From Candidatus Fermentibacterota bacterium (GTDB taxonomy: Bacteria; Fermentibacterota; Fermentibacteria; Fermentibacterales; JCC-6), in assembly GCA_014728175.1 (NCBI GenBank), contig WJMA01000017.1:62001-126000 (forward strand): 64,000 nucleotides of DNA, given 5' to 3'. Below are positions 2,014 through 31,708 of the stretch, piece by piece. The notes under the pieces are model-generated. The model worked only from the letters and a program-made list of their open reading frames with translations. It made no database searches and was not told the origin of the DNA. Each line of letters begins with the position of its first letter. Within the stretch, counting starts at the first letter, position 1. Made by a program: the position numbers and the translations under genes.

Positions 2014-4095
2014 TCAAGGCCCGTCTTCTGAGGGCTGCGGGGCCCGATTGTCCGGAGGTTGGCCGTTCTGGGGAATTCTCCAGAGAAGCCAGAGGCAGCA
2101 CAGCAGAACGCCCAGGGCAGCGAGAAAGGTGGCTGAACCTATCTGCTCTACCGCAAGTCCTTCTCTGGTAAGGATTAGCGCAAGACCGTTGTTCATGGTG
2201 TGCCACAGCATGGCGGGGAATATGGAGCCGGTCGCGAGAACGACTGCGGTGAGCAGCATCCCCAGGAAGGCGGTGGGGAGCAGGCGGAACAGGGTGATGT
2301 GGAACAGGCCGAAGATGATACCCACTGTGGGGATCAGTGCCCAGGGTTTCAGCTTTTTGCGCAGCCCGTACACCAGGAGCCCCCGGAAGGGAAGCTCTTC
2401 TATTATGCCCGGGAGGATGGCCACCCAGAGCAGCAGCTCCCACGTGGACAGAGAAGGCTGGTTGATGCTCTGGGCGAATGTCCTGAGCGTCTCCTCGGAT
2501 ATGGGCAGGAACCTGCTGGAGATCTCGAACAATCCCGCGCTGGCTACTATCCCCGCCGAGGCCCCTATCAGTACGATTGGCCAGGTATGCCATTTGGGCA
2601 AGCACAGCTTAAAGGCCTTTCTTGCGGGAAGTCTGTAATGCCTTACCACCAGGATAGACCCTCCGAGGAAGATGAGGAAGAGGTTGAGGGCCAGCTGATG
2701 CCTTATGTCGGCCGTAAACCTTCCGGAAAGAAGAAATAACGCGGCCCACATGACCGAGAAGATGGGAACTATCCGGCGTGAGAACTGCTCGGGGCCCCGG
2801 CCGGGGAAGCGGGAAATACTTACATCCTCCAGCATTCTGCCGGTTCGAAGCAGCGAAGAGGCGTATGCGGTGGCGCAGATCCCGGCTCCGAAGGTAACGA
2901 TCCATGCTACGCTTGCCTGCAGCCATCCAATCTGCCCCATCATCAGCCCTTTCAGGGCCAGAGCGACGTTGGCCAGGGGGACGATCAGCAGTACCGATCC
3001 CAGTTCCAGCTGGGGGGCCAGGGGAGCCGCCGCGGGAAGCAGCATCAGCAGGAAGAGGGGAAGGAAGAAGAGCTGGGCCTCCTTGTAGCTTCTGGCCTGG
3101 GCGGATATGGCCAGCAGGAGGCCGGAGCTCAGGACCGCAACCGGGAGCAGGAACAGGAAGGCCAGGGCGGCGTAGGACGGGGGTACGTAGAAGGCGATAT
3201 CACCGGGAATGGGAAGGATCTGCAGGGAGAGGTAAAAAAGCAGGTTCGCCGCCTGGATGAGGCATATGGCTACGGCCACCGTCGCTATGAGCAGATGCTT
3301 GGACAGGACTATCTCCATGCGGGTGGCCGCAGTGGTGAGCAGCGATTCCAGGGTTCCCCGCTCGCGCTCGCCGGCTACGCTGTCTATGGCCACCAGAGCT
3401 CCCCCGGTGAGCACGAAGAATAGAGTAAGTATGGTTGCGTACCGTCCCACAGTGCTGCGTGATTTTTCTCCCGAGGTGGCCAGGTCCTCCGATCTCACTG
3501 TTGCCGTGCTCTCCGGATTGGCGGGGAAGCCCGCCTGCCTCAGGAGGTAGTACTGGTGCTCGACCCTGACGTCCTCCAGTAGCGACAGCAGCCTTTGAGC
3601 TCCACTTTGACCGTCCTCGTGGTCGGCTCTGTAGAGAACGGTGAGCCTGGGAACCGGGGACTGGAGGGGATGCTCCAGGGAATCGGGGTAGCCGGGTCTC
3701 AGGGTGTCCGCCTTGCTCTTCCTGGCCACGTCGATGATGAAGTGGATGTCCTGGTCGGCGAGGCTTTGAAATACGCTGTCGGTCTCGACCTCCCTCAGGG
3801 CCATCTCGGTCACGTCATCCTCGTCGTAGGCCCATACGGTGGAGGACCGCATAAGCTGCCTGGTCTTCTCCGGTTGATCGCCCTGAATCGCATAGATGTA
3901 CTCGGTTTTCTTCTCGTGCTCCTCTTTCTTCTGGTAGACCCAGAAGTTCACCATGAGGATCAGAGGAACCACGATCAGAGGAAGCAGGACGGCCACGAAA
4001 ATGGTCCGCTTGTCCCTGCAGACCATCCTCAGCTGGGTGAGATACAGGCGGGCTATCCGGCCCCGGGAGCCCAAGCGGCGGTCGGGACTCGTCAT
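2014..4095 (-). CDS. ABC-2 exporter permease fused to a CPBP (CAAX-like) intramembrane protease
   Basis: This 693-residue membrane protein has two parts. Residues 1-420 or so form an ABC-2/NatB-type permease: TM1 (about 32-53), a long extracytoplasmic domain to about 215, then a block of TM helices including the hallmark VAGERERGTLESLL motif. Residues 440-680 or so are a CPBP-family (Abi/Rce1-like) protease with EELPFRG, a downstream GLFHITL histidine and the HTMNN motif, which are the expected glutamate, arginine and histidine signatures. The fusion is known as a family in databases but its substrate is not. The start overlaps the end of the upstream ATPase gene by 4 bases (ATGA), so it is the last gene of the exporter operon. 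Inferred role: export coupled to membrane proteolysis of a peptide or sensing partner. Confidence 0.9.
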   Translation of the reverse strand: MTSPDRRLGSRGRIARLYLTQLRMVCRDKRTIFVAVLLPLIVVPLILMVNFWVYQKKEEHEKKTEYIYAIQGDQPEKTRQLMRSSTVWAYDEDDVTEMALREVETDSVFQSLADQDIHFIIDVARKSKADTLRPGYPDSLEHPLQSPVPRLTVLYRADHEDGQSGAQRLLSLLEDVRVEHQYYLLRQAGFPANPESTATVRSEDLATSGEKSRSTVGRYATILTLFFVLTGGALVAIDSVAGERERGTLESLLTTAATRMEIVLSKHLLIATVAVAICLIQAANLLFYLSLQILPIPGDIAFYVPPSYAALAFLFLLPVAVLSSGLLLAISAQARSYKEAQLFFLPLFLLMLLPAAAPLAPQLELGSVLLIVPLANVALALKGLMMGQIGWLQASVAWIVTFGAGICATAYASSLLRTGRMLEDVSISRFPGRGPEQFSRRIVPIFSVMWAALFLLSGRFTADIRHQLALNLFLIFLGGSILVVRHYRLPARKAFKLCLPKWHTWPIVLIGASAGIVASAGLFEISSRFLPISEETLRTFAQSINQPSLSTWELLLWVAILPGIIEELPFRGLLVYGLRKKLKPWALIPTVGIIFGLFHITLFRLLPTAFLGMLLTAVVLATGSIFPAMLWHTMNNGLALILTREGLAVEQIGSATFLAALGVLLCCLWLLWRIPQNGQPPDNRAPQPSEDGP

Positions 4096-25768: not shown

Positions 25769-27505
25769 ATGCTGCTATTCGGTAAATCAAAGAAGGCGGC
25801 CGTAGGACTGGACGTCGGAAGCCACTCCATAAAGGTGGTCGAGATATCCCGGTCCGGTAAGGCCCTCAAGCTTTCGCGTTTCGCGATACAAGACCTTTCG
25901 CCGGGCACCGTGGTCGACGGTGAGGTGGTAAACAGAGACCACCTCGTTGCCACCATACGGGACGTGATAGCCACGTCGGGGATAAAGGCCAAGAGTGTAT
26001 ACTCGGCAGTCTCGGGCCGAAGCGTCATCGTCCGCAGGATACCGATGGAGAAGATGTCTGAGGACGAGGCCCGTCAAGCCATACACTGGGAGGCCGAACA
26101 GCACATCCCCTTCCGGATAGACGAGGTCAGCCTGGATTTCAAGATTATAAACGAGGAGATAGCACCCGGGCAGATGGAGGTGCTGCTGGTAGCCGCCAAG
26201 AGAGAGGTCGTAGACCTCCACAGATCCCTCCTGGCGGGCGGCGACCTGAAGGCCGAGGCCATAGAGCTGGAGCAGTTCGCCCTGCAGCGGGTGTACGAGC
26301 ATGCCTACCAGCCCGACGAGGAAGAATGCGTCACCCTCCTCAACATAGGGGCAGAGGTGACCAACATGATCGTGGTCAAGGGCGGCCTTCCCAGCTTCAA
26401 CCGCGATCTCTCCATCGGTGGAAACCGTTTCATAGAGGCTCTACAGAGATCACTGGGCCTGGAGTACGACGTGGCCGAGGCGGTCCTGAAGGGTGATATT
26501 CCCGAGGAGGTTTCCGAGGAAGAGGTAAGGTCTGCGATAGGTTACGTGATAGAGGAGCTGTCTACGAGCGTACGCAGATCGTTCATCTCCTTCCAGGCCT
26601 CCGGAGAGAGCACCAGGATTGACCGCATGCTGGTCAGCGGCGGATGCTCGCTGGTTCCCGGCCTGGCCGACATACTGAGCGAGCAGCACGGCCTGCCGGT
26701 AGAGCCCCTGGAGCCTTTCCGCAACCTCGAGGTGGAGCCCGCGCTTATACCCGAGGGGCAGAAACAGCCGACCGGAGCCATACTGGCCATGTCCATAGGT
26801 CTCGCCCTGAGGCAGTACGAGCCCGGCCTGGTGGACATAGACATCATTACAGAGCCGGAGGAGAAGAAGAAGGCCAAGAGGGCCCCGGCCGAGGAGTCCG
26901 TTGCCACAAACGTCCTCAGCTACGTCCCCCTGGTTCTCATCGTCGCGGGAATCGTCCTGATGGTTTTCCACTACGTCGGCCTGAACAACAGGGAAGAGGA
27001 GCTTCAGGACGAGATAGCTAGCGTCGAGCAACAGATAACCGAGATGCAGGAACAACTTACGCAGCAGAGGGAAGCCAACGAGCTGGCCGCGCAGCTGGAA
27101 CAGAAACGGGCAGCGATACGTCAGCTGGCTCTTTCCCAGAAATATACCGTTTACGTGATGGAGTACCTGTGCCGGGCGCTCTATCCTCAGCAGGCGGCCC
27201 TGGCGGAAGAGGCCGAGAAGGGGATCTACCTTACGGCCATGGTTCTGGAACAGGGAAGCATGAGGATAGGCGGAATAGCCCGGACCTGGGGCGAGGTGGT
27301 GGAGTTCCAGCGCAGGCTTACCGAACAGAAGCCCGACGGAACCACCCCTCTGTTTTCCATGGACGATTATGGACAGAGCTACAGTCTTACCACTGAGAGG
27401 CTGGAGAACAGGGCCGGCGAGGAAACCCGGTACCAGTTCGAGATGCAGGTGGGCGTGAACTCGGCCTCCCTGGAGCCTCTTGTCGGTGATTACGCCGAGA
27501 TTTGA
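25769..27505 (+). CDS. Fused PilM-PilN type IV pilus alignment protein
   Basis: This 578-residue protein joins two usually separate proteins. Residues 1-350 or so are PilM, an actin-like ATPase fold (GLDVGSHSIKVVEIS, LLNIGAEVTNMIVV, LVSGGCSLVPGLADIL). A linker follows, then a PilN-like part: one TM helix (about 388-408), a coiled coil (about 410-455) and a periplasmic alpha/beta domain to the end. In known pili PilM binds the cytoplasmic N-terminal peptide of PilN; here that link is covalent. GGGGAGGGACACA precedes the ATG. It leads an operon with pilO, pilP and pilQ; pilA, B, C and T are not in the window. Confidence 0.92.
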   Translation: MLLFGKSKKAAVGLDVGSHSIKVVEISRSGKALKLSRFAIQDLSPGTVVDGEVVNRDHLVATIRDVIATSGIKAKSVYSAVSGRSVIVRRIPMEKMSEDEARQAIHWEAEQHIPFRIDEVSLDFKIINEEIAPGQMEVLLVAAKREVVDLHRSLLAGGDLKAEAIELEQFALQRVYEHAYQPDEEECVTLLNIGAEVTNMIVVKGGLPSFNRDLSIGGNRFIEALQRSLGLEYDVAEAVLKGDIPEEVSEEEVRSAIGYVIEELSTSVRRSFISFQASGESTRIDRMLVSGGCSLVPGLADILSEQHGLPVEPLEPFRNLEVEPALIPEGQKQPTGAILAMSIGLALRQYEPGLVDIDIITEPEEKKKAKRAPAEESVATNVLSYVPLVLIVAGIVLMVFHYVGLNNREEELQDEIASVEQQITEMQEQLTQQREANELAAQLEQKRAAIRQLALSQKYTVYVMEYLCRALYPQQAALAEEAEKGIYLTAMVLEQGSMRIGGIARTWGEVVEFQRRLTEQKPDGTTPLFSMDDYGQSYSLTTERLENRAGEETRYQFEMQVGVNSASLEPLVGDYAEI

Positions 27506-27515
27506 TGGGGGGATC

Positions 27516-27944
27516 ATGAAAAGGATACTGCTGGTAGTCTCTGCGGCGCTGATCCTCGTCGCCGCGGGATGCGATCTGTTCGGAATGGAAGACACAAGGG
27601 TGTACGTGTGGGGGAACATCTACGAGGATGATCTGCACACAGTACCTGCACAGGGAATAGGTGTCTACGTGTACGGTGACACTGCCAACGTCTACTGCTA
27701 CGACGACTTCACCAACGCCGACGGCAGGTTCTTCATCGAGGCCCAGATCTACCCGAACATGGGCGGGGACGAAGAAGGCGGCTTCGGCTACAACATGAAC
27801 GAGAACGCGATGTTCGGGGTCGAGGCGCACCACAGCGGCGACTACTACATGTACTTCGATATAAAGAACGACCCTCTGATCATGGAGATCGGAGACACCG
27901 TGCGCGTCGAAGATGTAGATCTCCTCGACTTCAAGGTCCACTAG
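27516..27944 (+). CDS. Lipoprotein inside the pilus operon, unknown function
   Basis: The 142-residue product has a lipoprotein signal with lipobox LVAAGC (Cys near residue 19). The mature part is acidic, aromatic-rich and predicted mostly beta (VYVWGNIYEDD, YMYFDI), with a FTNADGRFFIEAQ segment resembling a carboxypeptidase-regulatory or Ig-like fold. It sits between pilMN and pilO, where the order is normally uninterrupted, so it may be a lineage-specific pilus accessory or pilotin-like lipoprotein (inference). ATG at 27516 follows GGGGGGATC. Confidence 0.82.
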   Translation: MKRILLVVSAALILVAAGCDLFGMEDTRVYVWGNIYEDDLHTVPAQGIGVYVYGDTANVYCYDDFTNADGRFFIEAQIYPNMGGDEEGGFGYNMNENAMFGVEAHHSGDYYMYFDIKNDPLIMEIGDTVRVEDVDLLDFKVH

Positions 27945-27989
27945 GGAGTGGTGGAGATGTACCCGAGCAAACGTGGAGGGAGGTAGGCA

Positions 27990-28550
27990 GTGGCTTTCGA
28001 CCTGAGAGACCCCAGAATAATAAGGATAATCCTGGGGATCGTGGTCCTCGCTGCGCTGATTTTCGTCTACTTCAACTTCGTTGCCAGCGGGGTTCAGGAA
28101 TCGATCGCTGAGGCCGAGGACACCCTCCAGATGAAAGAGATGGAGTTAAGGCAGCTCCAATCCCAAACCTCGGAGGACATGGCCAGACTGGCCCAGCAGA
28201 TCGAGATGTACAGACAGGAACTACAGAGCCTGGACCGCTTCCTACCCCGGACCTACGACCAGGAAGAGGTACTGGAGATGCTGACCGAAAAGGCCAGCGC
28301 CAGCGGTCTGCAGGTTCTGAGGCTGGACCCGTTGGCTCCTTCGGTGGAGGGCGAATACACGGTCTACACCTGGGACATAAGGCTCACCGGAAGGTACCAC
28401 CGCTTCGGCGTCTTCCTGGATCAGCTGACCCAGGAGACGATGATGACCTCGATAAGCAATCTGCAAATGCAGCAATTAAAGGCGGCGGAGGGGAAGTTCG
28501 ACAACGTAGAGGCGACTTTCACCTTCTCCACCTACGTGCAGCCTTACTAG
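27990..28550 (+). CDS. pilO: PilO-like type IV pilus inner-membrane protein
   Basis: The 186-residue protein has a short cytoplasmic N-terminus, one TM helix (about 12-33), a coiled coil (about 35-85) and a ferredoxin-like periplasmic domain (about 90-186). Its signature is LTEKASASGLQVLRLDP ... VRLTG-YH-F--FLDQLTQ, as in PilO. It pairs with the PilN part of the upstream fusion to form the alignment subcomplex. GTG start with GGAGG. Length is normal for PilO (about 200). Confidence 0.88.
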   Translation: MAFDLRDPRIIRIILGIVVLAALIFVYFNFVASGVQESIAEAEDTLQMKEMELRQLQSQTSEDMARLAQQIEMYRQELQSLDRFLPRTYDQEEVLEMLTEKASASGLQVLRLDPLAPSVEGEYTVYTWDIRLTGRYHRFGVFLDQLTQETMMTSISNLQMQQLKAAEGKFDNVEATFTFSTYVQPY

Positions 28551-28562
28551 GCGGGAAGGGGG

Positions 28563-29972
28563 ATGACGAACATGGCTAAGACCAGAATTCTGGCTGCCGC
28601 ATTCCTCCTAGCGATCCTTGTGATCCTGCCTGCAGGCTGCGACAGCCAAGCCGAGGAAGCCAGCCAGAGCGAGATGTCGAGCCCACCCGTGGTTCTATCC
28701 GAGAGCCCGGGGGTGTCGGGCTGGATGGCCCTGGACTTCGAGACCGAGGGGCCGGTTCTCTTCGACACCGATGATGGCAACTCATGGGCGCTCTTCCCCT
28801 CGGGGATGTTGCTTTGTCTCGATGCTTCTTCGGGGCACTGGAGATCTTACCTCTTGGACGGCCGTCCGACGGTCGTCGATCTGGAGGTGAGTGACGGTAC
28901 CGCCTACCTGTTGACCAACACCGATCTGGTGGTTTACGAGCCCGGCGAGCCCGCGGTCGTTCATGGGCTTCCGGAGGGGTTCTCGCCACTGGATATGGCG
29001 GTTGGTGACGGACCGGCCGTTCTGGGAGAGAACGGTCGGCTGGCGCTGCTCGAAGAAAGCGAGTTCGAGCTGGCATCTCCCGAGGAGTCGATGACTCCGA
29101 TCGGCAGCCTTAACTGGTTGGCCCCCGATTGGGTGTTCTCGGCTCAGGGCCCAGAGCTGGTCCGGGTGGATCCGGAGGTTGCTCTGTGGCAGAGAGAGGA
29201 AATGCCCTTCCAGGCCCCGGTCGCGGTGCGCGGCGGCGGGATCTTCGCCGAGTCTGATAACATCGTCTACCGCAGACGGGGACCTTCGGAATGGACCGAG
29301 GTGGCTCAGGGCCGCCTGTATCCCGACGGGTCGGTACTGGGTGTCGACGGCATCTACACCGTGAACGAGCCCGGCGAGCCCGTAGCCACCAGACCGGCCA
29401 TCGAGCCAAGCAACGTTATGACCGTCGCCGACGGGGGCCCGGTATGGGCCTACGATGACGAGGGAATTCTAGCATACTCGGCCCTCGGCGAGATAGAGAC
29501 CAGACTCCCCAACTACGAGATGGAGAGGATTACTTGCACCCTCGCCGGTCAAGGACCGCAGGAGGACACCGGCTCGCCGTCGGGCGTTTCCCCGGTAACT
29601 GCCGTGGGTGGCGCCGCGTTCCGGGTTTACGAGTCAGTTTCCAGCAGACCCGATCCCTTCACCGAGTTCCCCCCCCGGAGAAGGGACCTGAGGAGACCGC
29701 TGGAGGAGATATCGATCGAAGAGCTAAGACTGGTCGGTATCACTCTGGATCCGGTTGGCGGAGACCAGGCGATGGTCGAAGATATGAACGGCGTCCCCTA
29801 CCTGCTCTACGAGGACTCCGAACTGGCGAACAATACACACGTTGCCGAGATAACGAGCAACGAGGTGATCGTTGTACAGGAAGTTAGTGTTGGGACCGGT
29901 GAGGAAGGGGAAGCCGAGGCTTCCATCCCCACCATCTTTTCGATGCGGCTACATGAAGAGGGTGGTCTGTGA
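28563..29972 (+). CDS. PilP-domain lipoprotein with N-terminal propeller-like domain
   Basis: This 469-residue lipoprotein (lipobox ILPAGC, Cys near 26) is far longer than classical PilP (about 180). Residues 50-330 or so are repetitive beta segments with the look of a beta-propeller or beta-rich sensor (LLCLDASSGHW, TDLVVYEPGEP, GLDVSEL-like turns). Residues 360-469 or so match PilP: RPDPFTEFPP, ISIEELRLVGITLDPVGGDQAMVEDMNGVPYLLYEDSELANN. PilP links PilNO to the secretin. The extra domain may be a periplasmic scaffold; its function is unknown. The stop overlaps the pilQ ATG (TGATG). Confidence 0.83.
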   Translation: MTNMAKTRILAAAFLLAILVILPAGCDSQAEEASQSEMSSPPVVLSESPGVSGWMALDFETEGPVLFDTDDGNSWALFPSGMLLCLDASSGHWRSYLLDGRPTVVDLEVSDGTAYLLTNTDLVVYEPGEPAVVHGLPEGFSPLDMAVGDGPAVLGENGRLALLEESEFELASPEESMTPIGSLNWLAPDWVFSAQGPELVRVDPEVALWQREEMPFQAPVAVRGGGIFAESDNIVYRRRGPSEWTEVAQGRLYPDGSVLGVDGIYTVNEPGEPVATRPAIEPSNVMTVADGGPVWAYDDEGILAYSALGEIETRLPNYEMERITCTLAGQGPQEDTGSPSGVSPVTAVGGAAFRVYESVSSRPDPFTEFPPRRRDLRRPLEEISIEELRLVGITLDPVGGDQAMVEDMNGVPYLLYEDSELANNTHVAEITSNEVIVVQEVSVGTGEEGEAEASIPTIFSMRLHEEGGL

Positions 29973-31708
29973 TGCGTACGTACTTAGCATGTCTGTTGCT
30001 CCTGACCCTACCCGCTCTAGCCTACAGGGTCACGGACATCTCGGTCGAACCTAGCGGGGACCGCACGCAGATAACTGTGGTCGCCGATGGGCCGATCGAC
30101 TACGAGAAGTTCCTGCTTACCGACCCGATGCGGGTGGTGCTGGACCTAAACGGCGCTGTCCACTCGCTCTCGGCGACCGACTTCGCGGTCTCCAGAGGTG
30201 GGTGCAGCTCGATCAGGACCAGTCAGTACAAGGCTCCCCCCGACGGGATAGTCAGAGTGATCGTCGACGTCGAGGGTGAGTTGATGAACTACACCACAGA
30301 GGAGGAAAGCAATAAGCTCATCCTCTACCTGCAAACGGATCCGACGGGTATACCCTTCACCGCGTGGTCGGCTTCCTCGCAGTCTCCCTCCGTAACGGTG
30401 AGTGGAGGAGACGTTCCTCCCCTTTCCAACCCGACGGCGGCCAGCGCAACCATGTCCGGCTCGGGGAGCCAGGGAATAACTGTGAGCAGGCCCATGACCG
30501 CTCCCAGCGACGGATTCCCCGTGGAGTGGAGAGGAACCGGTGGCAGGCGTATAACCATCGATGTAACCGAGGCCGACATCCGTACGGTCTTCAGGTCCAT
30601 ATCCGACGTCAGCGGATACAACATCCTACTTCCGGAGGACTACGAGGCCACGGTCTCCGCCAGGCTGCGGAACGTGGGCTGGAGAGACGCCCTGATGTCG
30701 ATCCTGAATACCCAGGGCCTGGTGGCCACCAAGGAGGGCACCAACGTTCTGCGCATAGCAAGGAGGGACGACTTCTACGACGAGATCAGCGAAGCCGCCT
30801 CCAGTCGTCACGAGCGTCAGAACCTGCAGGACCTGCAGACCGAGGTGTTCATAGTCCGTTACGCCACCGCCCAGGACATAAGCTCGGCCACCGAGCCGGT
30901 ACTCAGCGATAGGGGGCAGATCTCTGTCGACGAGAGAACGAACTCCCTCATCGTTACCGACATTCCCCAGAAGCTGGACGAGGTGGGCAGGATGCTTCCC
31001 ATACTCGACAGCCCGACCGCGCAGGTGATGATAGAGGCCAAGCTGGTCGAGGTCGACGCCGGTGCGTCGCGGGAGTTCGGTATAGACTGGTCCGTGGGAA
31101 ATCTAGGCCGGACCGATAACCTGACCCACGGTGGCGGAAACCTCGGTCTGGGCGTGGGAACGCCACACGGGACCATAAGCTTCGGGCAGATTACCAACCT
31201 TATAGACGTGGAGAGCACCCTAAGCTACCTCGAGGAGAGCAACAGGGCGCGCATACTGTCCGAGCCCAGAATAGCCATCGTTGACAACAAAGAAGGTAAC
31301 GTACTCTCGGGCAAACAGGTCCCGCTCACCATGAGCGACGAGTCGGGTAACACGGTGGTAAGGCTCTACAGCATAGGCGTGAGCCTTACGGTTACCCCCC
31401 ATATAAACGCCGATAACAACGTGACCCTGGAGCTCAACCCCAAGGTGAGCGATCTCTCGGGGGAGAGCAGCGGTGATAATCCAATAATCCTGACCCAGGA
31501 AGCCACGACCACCCTGATGATAGATGATGGAGCCACCGGGGTCATAGGCGGAATCATGAGAAGCAAGACCTCCGAGGTAGAGAAGAGGGTTCCGGTTCTG
31601 GGGTACATACCCCTGATCGGCGACCTCCTGTTCTCCTATACCTCGGAAACCAGTGACCAAACAGAGCTGGTGATATTCGTAACTCCTCATATCATCAGAC
31701 CGTACTAG
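29972..31708 (+). CDS. pilQ: Type IV pilus secretin
   Basis: The 578-residue protein has a signal peptide (MRTYLACLLLLTLPALA), an AMIN domain (about 18-120: VTDISVEPSGDRTQITVVADG) and a Ser/Gly linker. STN/N0 (about 185-255: ITIDVTEADIRTVFRSISDVSGYNILL), N1 and the secretin beta-barrel gate (about 380-578: VTPHINADNNVTLELNPKVSDLSG, IGGIMRSKTSEVEKRVPVLGYIPLIGDLLF) follow. It forms the outer-membrane pore for the pilus. One AMIN domain is fewer than in some PilQs. The genes rsmD and coaD follow closely and are probably cotranscribed. Confidence 0.94.
   Translation: MRTYLACLLLLTLPALAYRVTDISVEPSGDRTQITVVADGPIDYEKFLLTDPMRVVLDLNGAVHSLSATDFAVSRGGCSSIRTSQYKAPPDGIVRVIVDVEGELMNYTTEEESNKLILYLQTDPTGIPFTAWSASSQSPSVTVSGGDVPPLSNPTAASATMSGSGSQGITVSRPMTAPSDGFPVEWRGTGGRRITIDVTEADIRTVFRSISDVSGYNILLPEDYEATVSARLRNVGWRDALMSILNTQGLVATKEGTNVLRIARRDDFYDEISEAASSRHERQNLQDLQTEVFIVRYATAQDISSATEPVLSDRGQISVDERTNSLIVTDIPQKLDEVGRMLPILDSPTAQVMIEAKLVEVDAGASREFGIDWSVGNLGRTDNLTHGGGNLGLGVGTPHGTISFGQITNLIDVESTLSYLEESNRARILSEPRIAIVDNKEGNVLSGKQVPLTMSDESGNTVVRLYSIGVSLTVTPHINADNNVTLELNPKVSDLSGESSGDNPIILTQEATTTLMIDDGATGVIGGIMRSKTSEVEKRVPVLGYIPLIGDLLFSYTSETSDQTELVIFVTPHIIRPY

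Follow-up and report, generated by a model that had tools for sequence, protein, structure and literature searches.

A genome of Candidatus Fermentibacterota (Hyd24-12; assembly GCA_014728175.1, contig WJMA01000017.1) carries, at positions 25769-31708 of the 64-kb stretch analysed here (hereafter the window), five plus-strand genes in the order pilMN, lipoprotein gene, pilO, pilP and pilQ. The system belongs to the type IVa pili, and its PilMN, in which PilM and PilN share one chain, resembles GspL. On balance we judge it probable that the operon encodes the alignment complex and secretin of a retractable pilus of this type, remodelled in the Fermentibacterota ancestor, in which PilM and PilN would dock in cis, PilP would form an additional layer and the lipoprotein would serve as an accessory component. 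An earlier sequence-only reading had delimited the five-gene operon correctly, including the presence of a gene inserted between pilMN and pilO. The features of the locus are the following.

25769..27505, plus strand: pilMN, PilM and PilN in a single frame, 578 amino acids (Pfam PilM_2 at residues 13-349, E 2.8e-65; AlphaFold2 predicted local distance difference test score, pLDDT, 78)
25769..26815, plus strand: actin-like PilM part, residues 1-349 (Foldseek best matches 5eou, 2ych and 3jc8; 142/341 columns invariant)
26837..26848, plus strand: kept PilN N-terminal motif, IDII, residues 357-360 (8 amino acids past GLALR/K in 34/34)
26924..26992, plus strand: transmembrane segment, residues ~386-408, where the long PilN helix begins (AlphaFold2 helix 386-471; hydrophobic stretch in the sequence)
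27218..27484, plus strand: PilN periplasmic domain, residues 484-572 (strands alternate with helices in the AlphaFold2 model; Pfam PilN at 478-519)
27516..27944, plus strand: lipoprotein, 142 amino acids, start ATG at 27516 (lipobox AAGC; C19 invariant in 36 sequences)
27990..28550, plus strand: pilO, 186 amino acids (Pfam PilO, E 3.1e-14, 53.8 bits)
28563..29972, plus strand: pilP, an enlarged lipoprotein, 469 amino acids (lipobox C26, RPDPF motif, relatives equal in size)
28713..29510, plus strand: predicted PilP beta-propeller domain, residues 51-316 (~27 strands in the AlphaFold2 model; Foldseek)
29511..29618, plus strand: PilP flexible linker, residues 317-352, with a conserved AGQ (A328, G329 and Q330 invariant; pLDDT <50 at 326-373)
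29619..29969, plus strand: C-terminal PilP domain, residues 353-469 (49/117 columns invariant; AlphaFold2 strands 389-462)
29972..31708, plus strand: pilQ secretin with AMIN, N0, N1 and secretin domains (Secretin E 6.9e-44, AMIN E 2.8e-11; its ATG overlaps the pilP stop)

Three family models score over their cut-offs within this one operon, namely PilM_2 (220.9 bits), PilO and the PilQ model TIGR02515 (289.5 bits, cut-off 284.35). Elsewhere the same genome encodes three PilT proteins over cut-off together with further related ATPases, a PilC and five N_methyl matches typical of type IV pilin N-termini. Some of these pilus genes share the contig with the operon, ~55-67 kb further downstream. 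They include a cluster of two PilB-like ATPases with one PilT and one PilC, outside the window at G000:C65:143486-148721 (~55 kb downstream), and pilins at 153317-153956.

The arrangement was compared across 38 named Fermentibacterota loci, in some of which the contig ends early or cuts pilQ. The order pilMN-lipoprotein-pilO-pilP (~462-479 amino acids)-pilQ is held in all 38 as far as the contigs extend, and all five genes are present in 29, so that the search of related genomes suggested by the sequence-only reading did recover the same architecture. Because the entire five-gene order recurs through the phylum, the architecture is beyond chance. Among the 24 genomes with a completeness of 90% or more, one of them the window's own, the PilMN frame is whole in every one, the PilP profile matches all 24 (one match being partial) and the lipoprotein profile matches 23. 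Breaks in the pilMN frame occur at two loci only (L063 and L064), each in a single genome. A sequencing error at the junction, the flaw that might have undone the claim of a one-chain PilM and PilN, is ruled out by the frame being unbroken in 24/24 near-complete genomes, and the fusion is genuine. About 28 additional acidic residues are found at the PilMN C-terminus in L038-L061 and L068 (Aegiribacteria and close relatives); neither the window nor other genera have them.

The junction itself is suggestive of how the two parts may be held together. In related bacteria with unfused genes, pilM ends with GLALR and a few further residues, pilN begins with MIRINLLP, and the stop and start codons commonly overlap. 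In the window, the frame continues from PilM into a transmembrane helix and coil and then into a PilN-like periplasmic domain. An INLLP-type motif is spaced exactly 8 residues from the GLALR/K end of PilM in 34/34 aligned Fermentibacterota sequences (INIL or IDIL in most relatives, IDII in the window, close variants in others), and the tether linking this motif to the membrane helix ranges in length between 25 and 33 residues in the same alignment. A constant spacer before the motif and a free tether after it form the pattern expected of a docked motif. The window PilMN (P0001) aligns straight across the PilM-PilN junction of PDB 5EOU, whose chain carries both annotations, and this entry is also the best Foldseek match of the AlphaFold2 model, the PilN-bound structures 5EOU and 2YCH giving TMt values of 0.85-0.87 versus 0.76-0.79 for PilN-free P. 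aeruginosa PilM. The earlier proposal that fusion makes the PilM-PilN contact permanent thus holds in part: a docking motif at a fixed distance suits docking in cis, but since AlphaFold2 leaves the linker disordered (pLDDT ~30) the contact itself is only inferred.

The second departure concerns PilP, whose lipobox cysteine C26 is invariant in 31/31 sequences and whose RPDPF motif is present. In the window protein, ~300 residues precede a weak PilP domain located near residues 353-469. AlphaFold2, run with 31 sequences, folds residues 51-316 entirely into strands with a pLDDT mostly of 88-97, leaves 326-373 disordered and places a second beta domain at 389-462. Foldseek matched the first of these regions to propellers, BamB (the best match) and WD40 proteins, at E 3e-9 and probability 1.00, and the strand list of the predicted fold suggests a putative ring of ~6-7 four-stranded blades. 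These results support a predicted beta-propeller fold for residues 51-316, as had been anticipated for the PilP N-terminus, and therefore an order of lipid anchor, short tether, propeller, flexible arm and PilP domain. The propeller-like repeats that had been read in the sequence were hardly borne out, self-alignment of the N-terminus giving only a weak repeat signal (offset ~115 residues, P 0.044; score 20.9 versus at most 13.1 in five shuffles); the propeller becomes visible in the predicted fold. No BamB/PQQ family match was obtained for the window PilP, PQQ_2 matching 2/31 relatives at E 0.0011 or worse, and a PDB sequence search with the PilP profile returned no convincing match. Among the genomes searched with this profile the propeller is found in Fermentibacterota only; in three of the other genomes searched the profile finds the C-terminal domain alone. 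A search of the window's own genome with PF04351 was silent, as was its control everywhere, and is therefore uninformative.

Other PilP proteins differ in their N-terminal parts, as judged by sequence. Those in L169:2551-4527 and L223:2710-4440 have a long, low-complexity extension of AMIN-like appearance and no propeller (L169 gave no Pfam AMIN match). A membrane helix and an NTF2-like-looking domain precede PilP in L221:2662-3585, L226 (minus strand, 2827-3753) and L218:2461-3357, and PilO and PilP are apparently joined in one frame in L222:1802-2758, L231:2533-3468 and L238:2223-3158.

The lipoprotein is the third distinctive component. A lipobox with an invariant cysteine is present in 36/36 relatives; CarboxypepD_reg (PF13620) matches six of these 36 weakly (best E 0.0021) and not the window lipoprotein, and a PDB sequence search with the lipoprotein profile gave no convincing match. 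The window protein is a putative beta-sandwich. Homologues map to the same place in other lineages: a tandem pair separates pilN from pilO in L168:1972-2923 (E 3e-11 and 3e-10), and one follows a fused pilMN and precedes pilO in L246:2071-2478 (E 3e-4); L171 has a weaker candidate (minus strand, 1921-2370 in reverse-complement coordinates; E 0.017). This recurrence between pilN and pilO is suggestive of a pilus-related role, and the protein looks like an undescribed accessory pilus component with relatives in two or three other lineages. Further pil operons encode apparently unrelated lipoproteins, located either in the pilO-pilP or in the pilN-pilO interval (L074:10336-10761; L229, minus strand, 2674-3117; L245:1950-2618).

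In Thermus, PilMN stimulates the assembly ATPase ~2-fold and neither PilM nor PilN alone does so; EpsL/XpsL, a natural PilM-PilN fusion, likewise stimulates its ATPase (PMC6325625). By analogy, the INLLP-type motif of the Fermentibacterota protein may dock in the groove of its own PilM, which would then stay membrane-bound in the PilN-bound, ATPase-stimulating state, as GspL does in type II secretion. Judging from topology, the lipid-anchored PilP propeller could add a scaffold layer around PilN and PilO, the flexible arm could bring the C-terminal domain of PilP to PilQ N0, and the lipoprotein may join the PilN/PilO/PilP layer as an accessory subunit in the periplasm. On this topology, it is plausible that a new periplasmic module sits between PilNO and the secretin. 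More tentatively, and in our opinion with less than even chances, the PilP propellers and the dedicated lipoprotein family, shared with few lineages, might build an extra periplasmic ring absent from known machines, with PilM locked to PilN.

Several points weigh against a remodelled pilus with docking in cis. The Pfam PilN score of the window PilMN (E 0.003, 18 bits) lies below the 22.8 cut-off, its transmembrane helix, coil and fold layout being consistent with PilN, and Pfam PilP (15.8 bits, cut-off 25.6) is likewise sub-cut-off, matching 12/31 relatives with a best E of 9.5e-4, while gene position, RPDPF and lipobox are consistent with PilP. AlphaFold2 gives the PilMN linker at 361-387 a pLDDT below 50 and leaves the motif unplaced in the monomer, and the fixed 8-residue spacer could equally set the spacing of subunits whose motif docks in trans on the PilM of a neighbouring PilMN, linking them in a chain or ring. 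We regard docking in trans as rather unlikely; short spacers of ~5-11 residues are also present in all six other natural fusions described below and suit docking in cis as well. The propeller, moreover, evolves much faster than the PilP domain (10/266 invariant columns versus 49/117), so that a conserved binding face is not obvious. This hints at a lineage-specific partner, and with the nearest solved fold being that of BamB, a propeller lipoprotein, the domain might conceivably be a docking platform for peptidoglycan, the BAM complex, the operon's lipoprotein or another partner, and not a pilus brace. That possibility appears to us a minority one, since all Fermentibacterota genomes have the propeller joined to PilP and the PilP-profile search never met it on its own. 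Finally, no experimental data on any Fermentibacterota pilus were found in the literature.

Two further explanations question the fusion or the identity of the system. The fusion would be nominal if an internal start codon or a protease gave separate PilM and PilN proteins, and a GTG in the window, or an ATG in several relatives, does lie near the ancestral PilN start. However, 3/20 genomes checked lack a start codon close to the motif, and the Shine-Dalgarno energy of the window GTG is -2.2, against values of -6.8 to -12.8 for the operon's true starts; the internal sites of a few relatives are somewhat better (-5 to -8), yet weaker than their own true starts. An internal PilN start is therefore not supported by the sequences, and separate products seem to us improbable. 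The locus could also be taken for a type II secretion system with pilMN as its GspL, given that GspL has an identical PilM-PilN layout and that PilO weakly matches GspM models. This identity was rejected, and we give it hardly any credence: a search of the window's own genome for GspL (PF05134) found no match while E. coli and Caulobacter controls were positive, the GspD secretin model TIGR02517 scores 226.8 bits on the window PilQ (cut-off 351.35), the PilM_2 and PilQ models fit, both over their cut-offs, and PilT ATPases are present.

An unsettled question is how PilM, via its contact with PilN, links the ATPases of assembly and retraction with the remainder of the machine. Fermentibacterota, which possess PilT ATPases and keep PilM and PilN in one chain, offer a natural experiment here: should their pili retract, retraction cannot depend on PilM letting go of PilN completely. 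The survey further indicates PilP as a hub for added domains, and the undescribed lipoprotein family that accompanies pilN-pilO in several lineages provides candidate new parts of a well-studied machine. With its fused PilM-PilN, its lipoprotein and its PilP bearing a predicted propeller, the Fermentibacterota system illustrates that a widely shared pilus machine can be rebuilt with new parts.

PilM-PilN fusion as such is already known. GspL/PulL/EpsL of type II secretion is a natural one (PMC10191384; PMC6325625), and six other lineages carry one in our survey of 103 loci outside the phylum (including a few duplicates), where in L246-L251 the PilM frame extends through a membrane helix to a PilN-like portion. 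A tree of 40 PilM sequences, limited by long branches, led to the rejection of a single origin for all sampled fusions (approximately unbiased test, p 0.007); with the same long branches, the tree is compatible with the Fermentibacterota and L246 fusions sharing one origin (p 0.495). The window PilMN is not a member of the Amuc_1101 family (NF045709), scoring 160.9 bits against an equivalog cut-off of 650.

Compared to known systems, the near counterparts of the fused chain include the L246-L251 proteins, which like the Fermentibacterota PilMN have a PilM-like N-terminus, a transmembrane segment and a PilN-like C-terminus in one frame and each keep an INLLP-like motif after their short spacer. 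The laboratory chain of PDB 5EOU (P. aeruginosa PilM:PilN1-12) similarly places the PilN N-terminus after the GLALR end of PilM, at a spacing of 9 versus 8 here, but is a crystallographic construct ending after 12 PilN residues. GspL (PulL, EpsL, XpsL) is also a single chain running from cytoplasm to periplasm; in contrast, PilMN has a cytoplasmic part whose sequence is that of a PilM, it retains the INLLP-type motif, and PilT and a PilQ secretin belong to its system. BamB, the nearest solved fold to the N-terminal domain of PilP, is likewise an envelope lipoprotein with a propeller, with which the predicted PilP propeller shares ~14% identity; the latter differs in being fused to PilP. With the type IVa PilMNOP-PilQ system the locus shares its components, gene order, INLLP-type motif, RPDPF and an AMIN-N0-N1-secretin PilQ, the genome encoding PilT, PilC and pilins at other loci, and it departs from the standard type IVa base in having PilM and PilN in one chain, a lipoprotein between pilN and pilO, and a predicted PilP propeller of ~266 residues.
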